The notes under the pieces were generated by a model. The model ran no database searches and was not told the origin of the DNA. It was given only the letters and a program-made list of their open reading frames with translations. A DNA stretch of 32,117 bases, from contig NZ_JAGGLM010000025.1 of NCBI RefSeq assembly GCF_017874415.1, forward strand, positions 1 to 32,117. The letters run 5' to 3'. This stretch comes from Clostridium algifaecis. GTDB lineage: Bacteria > Bacillota > Clostridia > Clostridiales > Clostridiaceae. This document shows positions 5,719 to 23,800 of this stretch, in pieces. The first letter of the stretch is position 1; each line of letters starts with the position of its first letter. The translations under genes were made by a program, and so were the position numbers.

Positions 5719-6564
5719 CTATATAGATTTTTGCTTCCAAAGTAGATTGCATTGTTTAGAAACAATACAGCCAATGCTTGTTAATATAATGGGAATAAGA
5801 TAATTAACTAATTTTAAATTAATTTGAATAAAAAACCAGCAACAGTTGATCCAAAGAAAAAACCGAGAAATGTCATAGTCTGTAATATACCATTTGCTGC
5901 ACCACAATTTTCTTTCGAGACTAATTTGTTCATTTCAGATGGTATCCCTGCAGTAAGGCACATAAATCCTGATAGACTCAGAATGGTTCCTATTGTCGTA
6001 AATGCAAGCAGTATTAAAATAAATAAACCAAAACATAAAAACCTCTATCACTTAAAGCTGTCGTAAATTTCATTGCAAATATGCCACCTATGATAGCTGG
6101 CAAAAATACCATCCACATATTGCTTGCACCAATCGTATTCTTCAGTATTGTAGGTACAATCATAAAAAGTTCTGAATTCTGATAATTTATGATAAAACCA
6201 CAAAGTGATACAAGTAAAACCTGTTTTGAACGAGCAGAAACTTCATCTGTTTTCTTAACCCAATAGTTTTAGCATCTGCATCAGGATGTGTCTGCTCTTT
6301 TGTAAGGTATAGTATCATTAAAAATGAACAGGCACTCAGCACAGTACACCCTATGAACAATACTTTACTGAAATAATCTTATAGAGCAGTGGTCCCACTA
6401 CAAATGCAATAACTGCACAGATAGCCACAATCACTCCGGCAATTCCCATTGCACTACTTTTTTTGTCATTTTCGATGTCATCACCAATCCATGAATAAGC
6501 AATTGTCATAACAGCACCACTACCTTGCAGTGCACGGGCTACAATAAGCATATAGATCTCGATT
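5719..6564 (-). pseudogene. Broken MFS transporter (middle and C-terminal parts)
   Basis: Minus-strand translation gives a drug-efflux-type MFS protein in several frames. There is an ARALQGSGA motif in helix 4 and SMAGIAG-like helix 5 near 6420-6540, then a frameshift near 6370. After that come FIGCTVLSACS and a charged loop, a second frameshift near 6268, a good stretch including VPTILKNTIGASN near 6130-6230, and a stop near 6020. The last frame holds LSGFMCLTAGIPSEMN and GAANGILQTMTFLGFFFGS (5820-6000) before an end at 5719. At least three frame breaks and the missing N-terminal helices make it non-functional. It joins upstream to an ArsR-like fragment without a frame break. Confidence 0.85.
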
Positions 6565-6770
6565 CCTTGATAGGGCAGACCAGAAACTTTTTGTAAAAAT
6601 TTTTTGCTGTTTGCAGAAAGCTGTATTGATAAATTTTTAACTTCTTTTTGAACTGAAGCATGGTGTTTTGGATCTGCCAAAACATTTATAATGGCAATTA
6701 ATTCTACTATGTTTGAATATAATATACTAACTTTAGGATTTTCAATATTTGAAGTCACTTCTAATGACAT
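6565..6770 (-). pseudogene. N-terminal fragment of an ArsR-type regulator (DUF5937-like) fused to the MFS remnant
   Basis: The 139-aa open frame 6351-6770 starts with about 69 residues that are not MFS-like: a YSNIVELIA helix followed by NVLADPKHH. This is the pattern at the start of DUF5937/ArsR-family regulators, which contain a (F/Y)SN-VELL-ALHVL-(N/D)P-HH segment. From about residue 70 the frame becomes helix 4 of an MFS transporter. The winged-helix domain of the regulator and the first MFS helices are missing, which points to one deletion that fused the two neighbouring genes in frame. ArsR-type regulators often lie beside the efflux pump they control, so the pair was probably one cassette. 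Confidence 0.6.
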
Positions 6771-6937: not shown

Positions 6938-7618
6938 ATGAGTAGAGAATTATGTATATCAGATGCCAGATATAAGTTATCTTCTAAAGATATGATTAAA
7001 AATGTTGAAACTACAGATAATAAAACAATTTATTACTATAATGAGAATTATATTCAAGGAAAAACAGTTCAATATGAAATATTTGATGGTGTATGGATTG
7101 TATACGATGATGTAGTGATTAAGACATCCGAGCAACTGTTCCCTGTAGAAGAAACAGGATTAATCGAAATGAATTATTGTATTTCAGGAAGATATGAATT
7201 TAATTTTTTAAACCACAAAGTATTTTATATGGGAACAGGAGATTTTGTAGCAGCACTTTCAAATAATGAATGTCATAAATATAATTTCCCATTAAGCAAT
7301 TATAAAGGTATTTCAATTATTACCAATTCCAAAAGTTTGGATGGTTTTCTTAAAACCATATTTCATGATACTGATATTACTAGTAATTTATTAGTAAGTA
7401 AAATGAGACAGTACAGTAAGTATAAGTATATAATTTTATTAAATAATAGCATTGTACAAAATATAATAAAAGAAATTATTTTACCAGATAATATATTTTG
7501 GAAAGAAGAGTCAATTCTTAAATTTGCGGAGCTTGTTTTACTGTTAATTAATGATGATATAGAAGCAGTTAAAGTTAGAGAAAAGTATTTTGACAGGCAC
7601 CTTGTAGACAAGGTAAAA
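6938..7618 (+). pseudogene. AraC-family regulator sensor domain without its DNA-binding domain
   Basis: The first 227 residues of the open frame starting at 6938 (ATG after GGAGTGGAG) look like the N-terminal cupin-like sensor part of a clostridial AraC-type regulator. Landmarks are an NYCISGRYEF strand and then MGTGDFVAAL. The two HTH motifs that should follow residue about 225 are gone. The frame runs straight into the start of an ABC exporter half (MRKKKTSPF at 7619). The fusion keeps frame, but the downstream partner is also broken, so the product cannot act as a normal regulator. Confidence 0.65.
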
Positions 7619-9018
7619 ATGAGAAAAAAGAAAACGAGTCCTTTTAAGAGATTGTTGTCATTTGCATCTGAATGCAAATGTAAAATGACATCTTCGGTAC
7701 TTTTGGCGGTACTTGGTGTTGCCTGCGGTATGATACCTTATTTTGCTATTGCAGAAATTACTGTAGAAATTGTAAATGAAAATTATACTTTTAATGAACT
7801 TGCTTCCATAACGCTTATTGCATTAGCAGGTTATACTGGAAAGGTGGTTTTAACTGCCATATCTACGTCACTGTCTCATAGTGCAGCATATGCGATACTT
7901 GGAAACATACGCAGAAAGCTGACTTTAAAACTTTCAAAAGTTCCGCTTGGTTATGTACTTAAGACTTCATCAGGTGAGTTAAAGACAATAATGATAGATA
8001 CAGTGGAAAAGCTGGAAGAGCCACTTGCACATATTATTCCTGAGATGATATCAAATCTATTAATTCCAGTATGCGTACTTGTCTATTTGTTTTATCTGGA
8101 TATACACATTGCAATAATTTCACTCATAACTATCCCCATAGGAATGATTTTGTATAAAATCATCATGAAGAAATACGTATACTATTACAAGAAGTATGTT
8201 GCAGCTGGAAATGTGATGAATTCAACTGTAGTATAATATGTAAATGGTATTGAAGCAATTAAGGCTTTCAATCAATCTGCTGCTTCTTATGAAATATACT
8301 AACGCTGTAAATAATAATTGCAGTGCAGTGACTTCGTTTTTCAAAAATACCTTGTTATTATATACTGCGATCATGTATATTACTCCCGAAGCCATGCTTT
8401 TTGTACTACCTGCAGGATTGTATTTCTATATGAATGGAACACTTACACTTGCACATTTTATTACATGTATAATATTGTCTTTTGGACTTTTGTCACCATT
8501 GATACAGGCAATGACATACACGGATGGTATTGCTTCTATGGGAACTATTATTAATTAGGTATGTGAAATACTGGATTCAGATGAGTTAAAACGTCCAGTA
8601 GAATACCAAAAATTACAGGATTACAAGATAAGATTTAAAGATGTAACTTTGGGCTATAATAATACGGAAGTTTTGCACGGCATATCTTTTGAAACAATTC
8701 CACATGGAATGACTGCAATTGTAGGGCCTTCAGGTTCAGGCAAATCAACTGTTGCAAAGCTTCTGGCAAATTTTTGGGATGTTAAAAGCGGAAGCATAAC
8801 TATAGGCAGCGTAGATGTAAAAAATATTCCACTAAAAAGAGATAAGTGATATTATTTCCTATGTATCTCAGGAAAATTTTCTATTTAATATGTCCATAAA
8901 GGAAAACATACGTATAGGTAAAAAAGGCGCCTCACATGAAGATTTAATTAAGGAAGATGATGTTTATAGTAAATTTATAGATGTTCGAAAAAAAGCAATT
9001 GGATGGAGTATTGGCTAG
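7619..9018 (+). pseudogene. Broken ABC exporter half-transporter (TMD-NBD)
   Basis: Remnant of a fused membrane-ATPase exporter of the type encoded beside AraC regulators in clostridia (siderophore/peptide exporter class). Membrane segments run from 7680 to 8230, then an in-frame TAA at 8234-8236, a frameshift near 8290, more membrane helices (8300-8550) and an in-frame TAG at 8556-8558. The NBD follows with Walker A GPSGSGKST near 8727-8753, another frameshift near 8846, and a Q-loop region YVSQENFLFN. The sequence then jumps from IRIGKKGA to SHEDLIKEDD and the family-typical C-terminal tail ending RKKAIGW. Signature LSGGQ, Walker B and H-loop are deleted. It cannot be functional. Confidence 0.88.
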
Positions 9019-9081: not shown

Positions 9082-9246
9082 ATGTGTATGTATATTTATA
9101 TGTATGAAACGCTAGAAGAATTAAGAGATAGCTTAAACATAATGGTAGATCCAAATGAATATACAAGAGAAGAACTATTAAAAATAAGTGTTCAATTGGA
9201 CAATCTAATTGTATTTTATTACAAATCGCCAAAGAATAAAGTCTAA
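9082..9246 (+). CDS. Small Spo0E-like aspartyl-phosphate phosphatase
   Basis: A 48-54 aa protein (ATG at 9082, or at 9100 in the same frame) with a two-helix pattern. Helix one is LEELRDSLN, and helix two carries the Spo0E signature S-x-x-L-D-x-L-I in SVQLDNLI, followed by an aromatic/basic end. Spo0E-family proteins remove phosphate from the sporulation regulator Spo0A~P and delay sporulation. There is no strong ribosome-binding site, so the exact start and expression level are uncertain. It lies between the dead ABC exporter and agrD, in the same direction as the agr genes. Confidence 0.65.
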   Translation: MCMYIYMYETLEELRDSLNIMVDPNEYTREELLKISVQLDNLIVFYYKSPKNKV

Positions 9247-9398: not shown

Positions 9399-9542
9399 AT
9401 GAAAATTTCTAAGAATTATTTACTAAAAAAAGCTATGAAAATGGTAGGTTCTTTATCATTACTTTTAGCAGCATTGGTTATAGTACCAACATCAACACTG
9501 GGTGGATATCAGCCAAAATGTCCTGATGAGCTTTTAAAGTAA
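9399..9542 (+). CDS. agrD: AgrD-type cyclic autoinducer peptide precursor with a Ser at the ring position
   Basis: A 47-aa prepeptide read from a strong RBS (TAGGAGG, ATG at 9399). It has a basic amphipathic N-terminus (KISKNYLLKKAMK), a hydrophobic stretch (17-30), a predicted signal core PTSTLGG (30-36) and the acidic tail YQPKCPDELLK (37-47). AgrB cuts before such a tail and closes a five-residue ring. Clostridial AgrD peptides normally have Cys five residues before the aromatic-Q-P tail; here that position is Ser32. A Ser lactone is known from the Staphylococcus intermedius peptide, which also contains P-T-S-T. The only Cys (41) is inside the removed tail. Adjacent agrC and agrB support the identity. 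Confidence 0.85.
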   Translation: MKISKNYLLKKAMKMVGSLSLLLAALVIVPTSTLGGYQPKCPDELLK

Positions 9543-9555
9543 TACAGCTAAAGTA

Positions 9556-9634
9556 TTTTTCGCAGAGATTATAAAAGAAAAGCGTTATAAAAAGAACTAG
9601 AAACATAAGTACTTATTATGATCTCTGTGAAAAA
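9556..9634 (+). repeat. 19-bp imperfect inverted repeat between agrD and agrC
   Basis: Positions 9556-9574 and 9616-9634 pair along 19 bases, with two positions being G-U-type mismatches in RNA. The loop is 41 bases and holds the small palindrome AAGTACTT. No T-run follows, so it is not a standard terminator. It could stabilise the short agrD message, reduce read-through into agrC, or be a processing site. The agrC ribosome-binding site lies just downstream and is not inside the stem. Confidence 0.6.
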
Positions 9635-9657: not shown

Positions 9658-10986
9658 ATGAATGCTCTAAGGGAAATAATATTGGATTGTATTGAATCCC
9701 TTCTTCTTTTAGGGATTTTTGAAGCATTGTACAACAAAAAAAAATTTATAGTAAAAAACAAATTGAGATCAATTTTATTTTGCATAATATTTGTTTTTGC
9801 AACTTACTGGAGTACATTTAATCTGCCTAATGCATATCATTCATTATTTATATCGGTATTTGATATTTTATTATTAGCTTGTATTACAAGAATAAAAATA
9901 TTTACTTCAGCAATTATACTTTCTGTATTTATTATAATGCTTTCTGTTACAGAATATTCTACTCAAACCGTTGAGATGTTCTTGTTTAATATAAATTTAG
10001 ATCAAATTTTTTTAAATCCAAAATACTTGGCAACTTTTTTAATAATTTCTAAAATGTTACAGATACTTATTGTATTACTGCTTTTTAAATTTAGTAAATA
10101 TTTTGCTAAATTTAAATTATTTCAACAAAAAAGTATTCTTTTTTCTAATTTGATAATTCAAGCTGGAATATTAAGTCTTTTTATATTTAGTATCAATTAC
10201 GGTATTTTTAATATAAAGAATGCTAAGATATTTAATATACTTATTTTTATTTTATATTTTATACTTTTAGTAATGGGATTTAAAGAATTAAAAGAATGGG
10301 AAAAAGTTATAAATATAGAATCCAGTTATAAAGTTCAAGAACATCAAATTAAAAATATGGAAGAAATAATAAGCATAATTAGACAAGAAAAACATGATTT
10401 TGCCAATCATGTTAATGTTATATGGGGTTTATGTCTGTTAAATAAACCAAATACTGTTGAAAGGATAAAAAATTATGTAACTGGAATTTCAGATAACATA
10501 CATTCAGCATTTAAATTTTTTAATACTGGAAATGAATATTTAGATGGATTATTATCTATAAAAAATAATTATGCTATGAAAAATAATATAGATTTTAATA
10601 TCACAATTGATGAACCATTTAGCTCAATTAAAATTAAAGAAAATGAATTAATAAGTATTATCAGTAATCTTGTAGATAATGCATTTGAAGCATTTCAACT
10701 TAAAGCTAACATTGAAAATAAAAAAATATCTGTTAATACTTTTATTAAGGATGAAAATTTTTACGTTAAAATATCTAACAATGGAGATATGATTCCTCAA
10801 AATATTAAAAGTAAAATCTTCGATAAAGGTTTTTCTACAAAAACTAAAAAATCAAGTGATCATGGATTTGGTCTATATATTACTAAACAATTAATTGAAC
10901 AAAACAAGGGGTGTATAACTTTAGAAAGTACCTCAGAAAAGACTAAATTTTTGATCAAATTTGAAATAAAGGAGACAGATATATGA
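9658..10986 (+). CDS. agrC: AgrC-like membrane sensor histidine kinase
   Basis: Receptor kinase for a cyclic peptide signal, 442 aa. Residues 1-220 hold about six or seven membrane helices, followed by a linker helix. The H-box is R-Q-E-K-H-D-F-x-N-H with the phospho-acceptor His at 246. The GHKL-type ATPase has N-box NLVDNAFEA (337-345) and G-box DHGFGLYI (401-408). This is the HPK10 layout of AgrC and related kinases. ATG at 9658 follows AAAGGAG. It overlaps agrB by ATGA. No cognate LytTR response regulator is in the window, so the phosphate partner must be elsewhere or absent. Confidence 0.88.
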   Translation: MNALREIILDCIESLLLLGIFEALYNKKKFIVKNKLRSILFCIIFVFATYWSTFNLPNAYHSLFISVFDILLLACITRIKIFTSAIILSVFIIMLSVTEYSTQTVEMFLFNINLDQIFLNPKYLATFLIISKMLQILIVLLLFKFSKYFAKFKLFQQKSILFSNLIIQAGILSLFIFSINYGIFNIKNAKIFNILIFILYFILLVMGFKELKEWEKVINIESSYKVQEHQIKNMEEIISIIRQEKHDFANHVNVIWGLCLLNKPNTVERIKNYVTGISDNIHSAFKFFNTGNEYLDGLLSIKNNYAMKNNIDFNITIDEPFSSIKIKENELISIISNLVDNAFEAFQLKANIENKKISVNTFIKDENFYVKISNNGDMIPQNIKSKIFDKGFSTKTKKSSDHGFGLYITKQLIEQNKGCITLESTSEKTKFLIKFEIKETDI

Positions 10987-11537
10987 ATAAACTTATATCT
11001 TGTTTAGTTGAAAAAATTTCTGAATCCAATCCCCAATTTTCAAATTTAGAATTAAAAAAAATGGAATATGGATTACTTTGTACTTTTGATGAGATTACAA
11101 AGTTTGTTCCATATTTTTTTATATTTTGGCTGTTCTCTCTTCAAAAATATTATCTGGTTACTCTTATGTTTTTTTGTCCTATAAGGTTATTTTCAGGCGG
11201 ATATCATGCAAACACTTACTGGGGATGTTTTTTTATTAGTTTTATTATATTTGGAATAATTATTATATTAGGTAAATACATATTAATTGCTAAGAACCTC
11301 TTAATAATATTAGCAATTGCTTCTCTTGTACTTATTTGTATTTTTTCTCCTGTAGATAATATTAACAAAAGAATAAAAAGCCAAGAGCGAAGAATAAAGC
11401 TCAAACACTTTTCTATATTAATTACCTTATTATTATGTATATCCTGTTACTTTATTCCAAGCAAGTTCTTAAATACTTCTGTAATCTCAATTGTTAGTGC
11501 AACAATAATGATGATGGTTGGAAAAATAGATATATAA
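10983..11537 (+). CDS. agrB: AgrB-type membrane peptidase that processes AgrD
   Basis: Membrane cysteine endopeptidase that cuts the AgrD tail and makes the ring intermediate, 184 aa. The catalytic motif GGYHANTYWGC is intact, with His75 and Cys82 matching the spacing of the S. aureus pair (His77/Cys84). Several hydrophobic helices follow. Its start overlaps the agrC stop (ATGA) and is preceded by GGAG, so it is coupled to agrC. Gene order D-C-B differs from the usual B-D or B-D-C-A. Confidence 0.92.
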   Translation: MNKLISCLVEKISESNPQFSNLELKKMEYGLLCTFDEITKFVPYFFIFWLFSLQKYYLVTLMFFCPIRLFSGGYHANTYWGCFFISFIIFGIIIILGKYILIAKNLLIILAIASLVLICIFSPVDNINKRIKSQERRIKLKHFSILITLLLCISCYFIPSKFLNTSVISIVSATIMMMVGKIDI

Positions 11538-11570: not shown

Positions 11571-11611
11571 AAAACAGAAGGCAGATTCTAAAAAGAATCC
11601 GCCCTGTTTTT
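11571..11611 (+). terminator. Terminator after agrB
   Basis: A long hairpin (AACAG-GGC-GATTCT paired with AGAATC-GCC-CTGTT, one mismatch and a two-base bulge) is followed by a T-run. It closes the agrDCB unit 34 bases after the agrB stop. The following 11612-11891 has no supportable gene; one start-less open stretch on the minus strand is listed as rejected. Confidence 0.85.
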
Positions 11612-12092: not shown

Positions 12093-12139
12093 TTTTTATT
12101 TGATATTCTTCTTTTGTAAACAAAAAAGGAGTGTCAATT

Positions 12140-12915
12140 ATGCAAACAGATTATTTATTAGAAACTAAAAAATTAGCGAAAATATTTAAAAAGGAATACG
12201 CTGTAGATGAGCCTACTAACGGACTAGACCCCATTGGCATTAAAGATTTGCGAAGATTAATAAAATCTTTTCCAGAAGAAGGAATGACCGTAATTATATC
12301 CAGTCACATTTTAGCCGAAGTAGAACAAGTTATAGACTATGTTGGAATTATGAGTCATGGTATTTTAGGTTATCAGAGTAAAATCAATCCAGGTGAAGAT
12401 TTGGAAGCTTTATTTATGGATGTTGCAGAAAATTTAAAAACAAAAAGAACTATGCTTCGTAAAATGTTAATTTTTATGCCCATATTATGCGTGGTACTTG
12501 CATCTATTGGAAATCGTGATATTTATTTTGAACTTGATAATCATATGCCAAAAGGAGTAATATGGTACATTGATTATGCCTCAATGAAACGTGCTTTTAT
12601 GAATATTATTATAAACGCACTTGAACATACTCCAGATAAAGCATCATTAAATTTAGATGTATCCTTGAAAAATAATTTAGCTTCTTTTGTAATTACTGAC
12701 TCCGGAAAAGGATTTTGTTCCGAATCATTAAAAAAAGCTACAGAATTATTTTATACTGATAATAAAAGTCGAAGTCAAACAGGTCATTATGGCATTGGAT
12801 TATCTTTTGCAGATAAAATAATTAAGGCTCATAATGGTACTCTTCGTATACAAAACAATCAGATACAGGCGGTGGACAGGTTGTAATTCTATTGCCTGTA
12901 GAGTTAAATGATTAA
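12140..12915 (+). pseudogene. Three-gene chimera: ABC ATPase + ABC permease + histidine kinase fragments
   Basis: One open frame (ATG at 12140 after AAAGGAG) contains pieces of three genes. Codons 1-23 are the start of a bacitracin/lantibiotic-immunity ABC ATPase (LETKKLAKIFKKEYAVD). It jumps to that ATPase's Walker B/D-loop region DEPTNGLDP and H-loop SSHILAEVEQ, so Walker A and signature are lost. Near codon 96 it becomes the N-terminus of a permease (LKTKRTMLRKMLIFMP). Near codon 125 it joins a histidine-kinase ATPase domain with N-box NIIINALEHTPD and G-box GHYGIGLSFA. A frameshift near 12858 moves the natural kinase end (GGGQVVILLPVE) to another frame, stopping at 12915. Such loci normally run ATPase-permease(s)-kinase/regulator, so this is an operon collapsed by internal deletions. 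Confidence 0.85.
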
Positions 12916-21912: not shown

Positions 21913-22175
21913 CATAAAAAACCCATCCTAAAAAAATTAGGACGGGATATCCGCGGTACCACCTAAGTTGTGCTATATAAAGCACCTCTCAATTTCAGAC
22001 ACTAGCATGTCCTATCTGTTATAACGTACAGCCTACGGTAACTACTACTCTCTATAAGATTTCGTTTTACTCCTCAAAGGTCCATTCACTATTTGTTATT
22101 GTGCTTAGATTTCACCATCCTAAACTCTCTTCAACTAAACTAAATAGTTACTCTTCCTTGTCAAAGGATATTATA
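21913..22175 (-). promoter_or_regulatory. T-box riboswitch (tryptophan) upstream of trpP
   Basis: The minus strand carries a full T-box leader. It ends with the signature AGGTGGTACCGCGGA (21950-21964) and a terminator (CCCGTCCTAA with TTAGGATGGG and six T, 21916-21946). Stem I occupies roughly 22060-22165, with the CTATTT/AAATAG base pairs and the GATGGTGAAA loop. TGG followed by A at 22081-22084 is the likely specifier codon, which agrees with trpP as the target. Uncharged tRNA-Trp would pair and stop termination. Confidence 0.92.
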
Positions 22176-23659: not shown

Positions 23660-23800
23660 TTATTTGACGAAACTCTGGAGAGACTCTTTTTGAGCGCCGA
23701 AGGGGAAAACTAGAATCTAGTGAAACTCTCAGGTAAAAGGACGGAGACTTTATATAAAAATTGATTTTTCAGAGACTAATATCTTTTAGTCTCTTTTATT
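23660..23800 (+). promoter_or_regulatory. Glycine riboswitch (single aptamer) with terminator
   Basis: The core matches the glycine (gcvT-type) motif. It has CTCTGGAGAGA (23674-23684), GCGCCGAAGGGG (23694-23705), AAACTCTCAGG (23723-23733) and AAAAGGACGGAG (23735-23746). Only one clear aptamer is seen; 23625-23660 may be a vestigial partner. An intrinsic terminator follows (AGAGACTAA with TTAGTCTCT, 23771-23794, and a T-rich tail). The usual clostridial logic is that glycine allows read-through. It controls the UPF0237/UPF0210 pair. Confidence 0.92.

Follow-up and report, generated by a model that had tools for sequence, protein, structure and literature searches.

Results

An agrD-agrC-agrB operon with serine at the ring site

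The window, by which we mean the whole stretch of 32,117 nucleotides analysed from Clostridium algifaecis (contig NZ_JAGGLM010000025.1), holds an operon in the order agrD-agrC-agrB, all three genes on the plus strand, with agrD first and without agrA. Its features are the following.

9082 to 9246, plus strand: small Spo0E-like ORF of 54 aa upstream of agrD (PF09388, 7e-08, 32.8 bits, cut-off 23)
9399 to 9542, plus strand: agrD, encoding a precursor of 47 aa whose ring site is Ser (TIGR04223, 33.7 bits, cut-off 19)
9492 to 9506, plus strand: predicted ring Ser32-Thr-Leu-Gly-Gly36 (from the ring sites of 40 relatives, 32 with Ser and 8 with Cys, and from column entropies)
9507 to 9539, plus strand: C-terminal tail YQPKCPDELLK, the part that AgrB is predicted to cut off, with Cys41 in it (Gln/Glu-Pro-x-Cys in 40/40 relatives)
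9556 to 9634, plus strand: RNA hairpin with arms 9556-9573 and 9617-9634 (z -4.58)
9658 to 10986, plus strand: agrC, 442-aa membrane histidine kinase and predicted receptor (HATPase_c 61.2 bits, SPOB_a 35.3 bits)
10983 to 11537, plus strand: agrB, 184-aa processing endopeptidase (PF04647, 131.1 bits)
11578 to 11605: terminator-like hairpin after agrB, called on the minus strand, the plus strand having, by eye, a T run behind it as well

The agrD frame has an AGGAGG site directly 5' of it, and the TIGR04223 (AgrD) model matches residues 10-47 of the peptide above its curated cut-off. The N-terminal half is hydrophobic and positively charged, the core reads Pro-Thr-Ser-Thr-Leu-Gly-Gly and the tail Tyr-Gln-Pro-Lys-Cys-Pro-Asp-Glu-Leu-Leu-Lys. 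As in other AgrDs, a candidate nucleophile, Ser32 (codon 9492-9494), stands five residues ahead of the conserved tail. What the peptide lacks is the Cys before the tail that defines a classical thiolactone autoinducing peptide (AIP), its sole Cys being Cys41 (9519-9521); the Ser at the ring site is that of the lactone precursors of the S. intermedius and C. thermocellum type. The ORF and the TIGR04223 score thus bear out the preliminary description, which had reported a 47-aa AgrD with Ser32 at the ring site and its only Cys in the tail.

In AgrB, the predicted catalytic pair is His75 (11205-11207) and Cys82 (11226-11228), whose roles we assume to be those of the S. aureus AgrB residues; a sequence search for solved AgrB structures found none. 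AgrC has the domains of a receptor kinase (HATPase_c and SPOB_a), and the NCBIfam staphylococcal AgrC model aligns with its residues 28-432 at 38.9 bits, under a cut-off of 500. AgrA is the component of a complete agrBDCA system that is missing: within this genome LytTR domains were found only on contigs C8 and C11 and the agr loci lie on C2, C16 and C25, and no LytTR domain was found within 4 kb of the 24 loci with a QPKC-type tail that seven searched genomes contain.

At 6938-9018 an ABC transporter permease/ATPase gene is split by stops into several open frames and looks decayed, and several short overlapping frames on the minus strand at 5814-6770 resemble, by eye, the remains of a membrane transporter. 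A chimeric ORF at 12131-12886 joins part of an ABC ATPase of the lantibiotic-protection type to a C-terminal piece of a histidine kinase, and is probably a deletion scar. Farther away, the window holds a T-box leader (21935-22173, minus strand, 122.1 bits) and a glycine riboswitch aptamer (23665-23754, plus strand, 64 bits).

The same precursor at a second, diverged locus

The C. algifaecis genome (2.96 Mb in 53 contigs) encodes four AgrBs and four AgrDs. One of these AgrDs, at a locus on contig C2 (L095), is identical to that of the window over all 47 residues, the two genes differing by five nucleotides, all of them synonymous. The duplicated block spans 2.6 kb and is 89.8% identical, with AgrC 87% and AgrB 90% identical between the copies, so that the two loci share one precursor sequence though their AgrCs differ at 13% of positions. 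The third AgrD is of the same kind, with the ring Ser-Ile-Ile-Gly-Ser, and the fourth (contig C16) is of the ordinary Cys type. The identical peptide at a diverged second locus, together with a ring site restricted to Ser or Cys in the relatives described below, indicates that the agrD of the window is more than a chance ORF.

Only serine or cysteine at the ring site of close relatives

A model built from 12 window-type peptides gave 58 listed rows in 35 of 206 Clostridiaceae genomes. We kept as relatives the 40 rows at E <= 7.6e-12, from 21 genomes and including the window itself; one further row fetched with them (L130) is of another kind and was dropped. Ser32 aligns with the ring Cys of those relatives that have one, and the ring site is Ser in 32 rows, Cys in 8 and nothing else, a count to be read in the knowledge that the profile searches behind it include the ring column and could favour Ser, Cys or Thr. 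With that column masked and AgrB as the anchor, one Ser (L264) and one Thr (L263) were added beside two more distant AgrBs. These two are among the four that we read of the 18 weaker rows, the others being L217, with Cys, and L265, with apparently a Cys and a six-residue ring.

The four positions after the ring site are hypervariable, with 35 distinct rings among the 40 relatives. Over the 37 distinct full-length rows, column entropy is 2.36-2.58 bits at positions 33-36, 0.70 at position 32 and 0-1.2 at positions 37-47. Two neighbours of Ser32 were considered as nucleophiles and rejected because their columns are not limited to nucleophilic residues, column 31 (Thr31) being Ala in 7/37 and that of Thr33 hypervariable. 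Cys41 was rejected too. Its equivalent is found in all 40 relatives, including the eight with Cys at the ring site, so it is a constant of the tail and no stand-in for the ring Cys; a further Cys occurs in 12/40 at another, unconserved place. The preliminary description had proposed Ser-Thr-Leu-Gly-Gly as a five-residue ring, had set Cys41 aside and had suggested looking across Clostridium for Ser/Cys exchange at the ring site: the exchange is there, relatives that use Cys41 were not seen, and the predicted five-residue ring is the best reading of the alignment.

At 39/40 loci there is an AgrC row scoring 400 bits or more, and at 26/40 an AgrB row scoring 100 bits or more lies within 4 kb downstream, 14/40 having none; in all 26 AgrB rows the motif GG[YF]HAxTYxxC is present, beside Ser and Cys types alike. 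A same-strand Spo0E-like ORF was found within 4 kb at 15/40 loci by an HMM built for this analysis, which missed at least one more (L094, whose ORF scores 49.6 bits against PF09388). We considered whether the choice between Ser and Cys is tied to the loss of the adjoining AgrB, which is present at 24/32 Ser loci and at 2/8 Cys loci (Fisher p 0.014); this association is only suggestive because of the kinship among the rows and because stops interrupt two of the AgrBs in the count (L119 and L122). A mobile origin was also considered and discarded, window-type AgrB not being found in the plasmid and phage collections searched. Two window-type AgrDs (L266 and L267) do occur on an IMG/VR contig (IMGVR_UViG_2718218017_000006), which is probably a provirus or a mis-called piece of host DNA, as L266 is identical to the chromosomal L102.

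Inferred switches between serine and cysteine

When 39 AgrCs are placed on a maximum-likelihood tree and labelled Ser or Cys after the adjoining precursor, the label requires five changes, at least three of which are forced by well-supported branches, and between four and six over the bootstrap trees. The label is nevertheless clustered, only 7 or 8 of 500 shuffles being as low. Ser is found throughout the window clade and in every one of the outermost rows, and all Cys rows fall inside one group of 21, a pattern that suggests, on a tree without a true root, that the direction of change was from Ser to Cys.

Some genomes hold both types. In G006, a single PF04647 match coexists with one Cys-ring precursor (L091) and two Ser-ring precursors (L093 and L116), so that the three seem to share a single processing AgrB, with the caveat that this is a draft (70 contigs, 99% complete) in which a second AgrB could be missed. 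G011 has one Ser and four Cys window-type precursors; the AgrB that accompanies the Ser type is intact, one that accompanies a Cys type is interrupted, and a third adjoins an AgrD from a different family. G003 carries three Ser precursors and two Cys precursors; one of its AgrBs is close and two belong to other families.

Serine at the ring site is common in Clostridia

A TIGR04223 search of the class Clostridia matched 114 of 391 genomes. Our class sample consists of the best 130 of the matches listed, leaving out rows from the genus of the window and those of G312:C429 and G553:C342. Ring sites could be parsed in 125 of these AgrDs: Cys in 87, Ser in 33, Thr in 4 and one other, with a Cys at -7, shares that are approximate because high-scoring rows weigh more heavily in the sample and the ring column is part of the model; the five unparsed rows have, by eye, Cys. 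By ring register, the Cys types divide into 73 of five residues, 13 of six and one of four. Ser types come from 22/61 genera and 25/83 genomes, nine of the latter also having a Cys type. Ser-type AgrD is therefore widespread in Clostridia and no rarity, and these counts suggest that roughly one in four of the clostridial AgrDs sampled may be of the lactone type. The novelty implied by the preliminary description was thus set too high, all the more so as a lactone from a clostridial AgrD has been published before (PMC5322536). Thr at the ring site (L171, L183, L210, L215 and L263) possibly marks a threonine lactone type. A Cys in the tail is found in 7/37 Ser or Thr rings versus 5/87 Cys rings, rows being counted regardless of kinship.

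Ring ends without bulky hydrophobic residues

The hydrophobic ring end of the S. aureus peptides is needed for binding to AgrC. In the clade of the window, none of 38 distinct cores ends its ring in two bulky hydrophobic residues, versus 67/110 in the class sample, and 7/38 versus 88/110 have one at the last position alone; 26/38 of the clade cores end in Gly or Ser. Since 21 of 31 Ser or Thr rings across the class do have the hydrophobic pair, its absence is a trait of the clade and not of Ser. AgrC recognition, or part of the register, could accordingly differ here from the textbook case: either the AgrCs of the clade read another feature, or retained N-terminal residues supply the hydrophobicity.

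A covarying hairpin between agrD and agrC

The 3' end of the RNA hairpin in the window falls just ahead of the agrC ribosome site. Structure at this place is general among the relatives, the 100 nt after agrD reaching z <= -2 in 38/40 loci and z <= -3 in 30/40; in the control, the 100 nt upstream of agrD, the counts are 7/40 and 2/40. Changes on both sides that keep the pairing were seen at 8/18 pairs in a set of five sequences and at 7/25 pairs in a set of ten, and a few pairs are broken in single rows. No Rfam family matched the hairpin at E <= 1. A likely role for this putative element would be to fix how much signal is made relative to receptor, through termination or cleavage of the message.

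Discussion

We consider it very likely, from comparison of sequences, that the product of agrD is the precursor of a cyclic autoinducing peptide of the agr type, a five-residue lactone closed by Ser32 and sensed by AgrC. In such a scheme, AgrB would act as a Cys82/His75 protease and cut between Gly36 and Tyr37. The N-terminal fragment would stay bound as an acyl-enzyme until its acyl group passed to the Ser32 hydroxyl, forming the lactone ring Ser-Thr-Leu-Gly-Gly. A second protease would then cut on the N-terminal side and release the peptide, to be sensed by the AgrC encoded next door. We infer the processing, the closure by Ser, the lactone rather than a rearranged ring, and the recognition by AgrC. 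As for the output of the kinase, the Spo0E-like neighbours make Spo0A a candidate target, and that AgrC acts through Spo0A is a guess.

Other fates of the peptide have to be weighed against this one. Cys41 could be the ring nucleophile, closing a thiolactone from the tail part, as it is the only Cys available in the window peptide and never varies among the relatives; the eight relatives that keep it next to a ring-site Cys argue against this, and so does its position in the conserved, non-variable tail, with only six residues following it, where a ring would miss the hypervariable block altogether. We find this reading extremely improbable. Nearly as hard to sustain is the idea that the peptide is uncyclised, either decayed or a linear signal. 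The broken ABC transporter pieces nearby (6938-9018) lend it some colour, but the two agrD copies have accumulated five synonymous changes and no amino-acid change, the operon is intact and the ring site has stayed Ser or Cys in 40/40 relatives.

A subtler alternative, unlikely but less so than the previous two, accepts that AgrB makes the Ser lactone and adds that the free peptide then turns, by an O-to-N shift, into a cyclic pentapeptide closed head to tail. Such a rearrangement, to homodetic cyclopeptides, is described for tail-less pentameric thiolactone AIPs from Listeria and from other species (PMC11297923), and residue 31 is small in 40/40 relatives (Thr, Ala, Asn or Ser), so that a cut directly before Ser32 is possible. 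Against this, the product of the C. thermocellum AgrD is reported as a lactone (PMC5322536), and an N-terminal tail, if retained after the second cut, would block the rearrangement. The Ser32 lactone stays our preferred product.

Lactone AIPs are usually presented as rare exceptions. The Ser-type ring is instead a known and fairly common clostridial variant, and what looks new lies at the level of the clade: rings without a hydrophobic end, inferred switches between Ser and Cys, a genome with a single AgrB for both, and a covarying hairpin. For the alternation of Ser and Cys in this Clostridium group, we found no description in the literature searched, a search in which most subscription papers and all supplements were beyond reach. 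Taken together, these traits could describe a lineage with non-hydrophobic ring ends, in which O and S are freely swapped and lactone and thiolactone signals come from one AgrB within one cell, to be read by paired AgrCs, a proposal that we hold to be evenly poised between right and wrong. If it is right, G006 is the cleanest case, with its single AgrB for one Cys-ring and two Ser-ring precursors. More generally, these Clostridium relatives offer natural pairs of a Ser and a Cys type whose precursors hardly differ and whose AgrBs hardly differ either, making the choice of nucleophile by AgrB and the discrimination between lactone and thiolactone by AgrC directly testable in industrial strains that are harmless. 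Lactones resist thiols better than thiolactones do, and one may speculate that this matters to organisms living in reducing, thiol-rich settings.

Among known systems, the AgrD pentapeptide of C. thermocellum has been identified as a lactone between Ser25 and Phe29 by targeted LC-MS/MS of supernatant, with a synthetic standard for comparison (PMC5322536). Like the window peptide, its precursor has Ser at the site of a five-residue ring and a tail beginning with Tyr, with Pro five residues further on; it differs in that its gene is described as lacking a surrounding agr operon (PMC5322536), whereas the window has the full D-C-B operon. The comparison with RIPTSTGFF drawn in the preliminary description finds its counterpart in print as RIPT[STGFF], given there under S. 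pseudintermedius (PMC12312760). The peptide of S. intermedius and S. pseudintermedius shares with the window the Pro-Thr-Ser-Thr around the ring site and is a Ser lactone (PMC12312760, PMC3673130), but its ring ends in Phe-Phe instead of Gly-Gly and its operon is an agrBDCA with AgrA. GBAP/FsrD of E. faecalis is likewise a lactone closed by Ser and made by an AgrB homologue (PMC12312760), as is predicted for the window, its ring having nine residues instead of five. The agr2 AIP of C. difficile, listed as NSA[SSWVA], is another clostridial case with Ser at the ring site (PMC12312760), from an agrB2D2C2A2 operon which, unlike that of the window, includes AgrA; the table in that source gives the peptide without its basis.

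In gene content the window operon resembles system 1 of C. autoethanogenum, which consists of agrD1-agrC1-agrB1 and a spo0E-like gene (PMC8748961), sharing with the window the D-C-B order, the absence of agrA and the adjoining Spo0E-like gene. In the window this ORF lies upstream of agrD, and in the relative L094 (genome G005) the order is D-C-B-Spo0E, as in C. autoethanogenum system 1, with the Ser ring STGGA. Joint deletion of agrD1 and agrD2 in C. autoethanogenum changed gas metabolism, agrD1 complementing in part, and control through Spo0A was also raised as a guess by those authors (PMC8748961). The word serine does not occur in the main text of that paper. If the agrD1 of C. autoethanogenum carries the ring Ser of L094, genetic evidence for a working Ser-type AgrD already exists.
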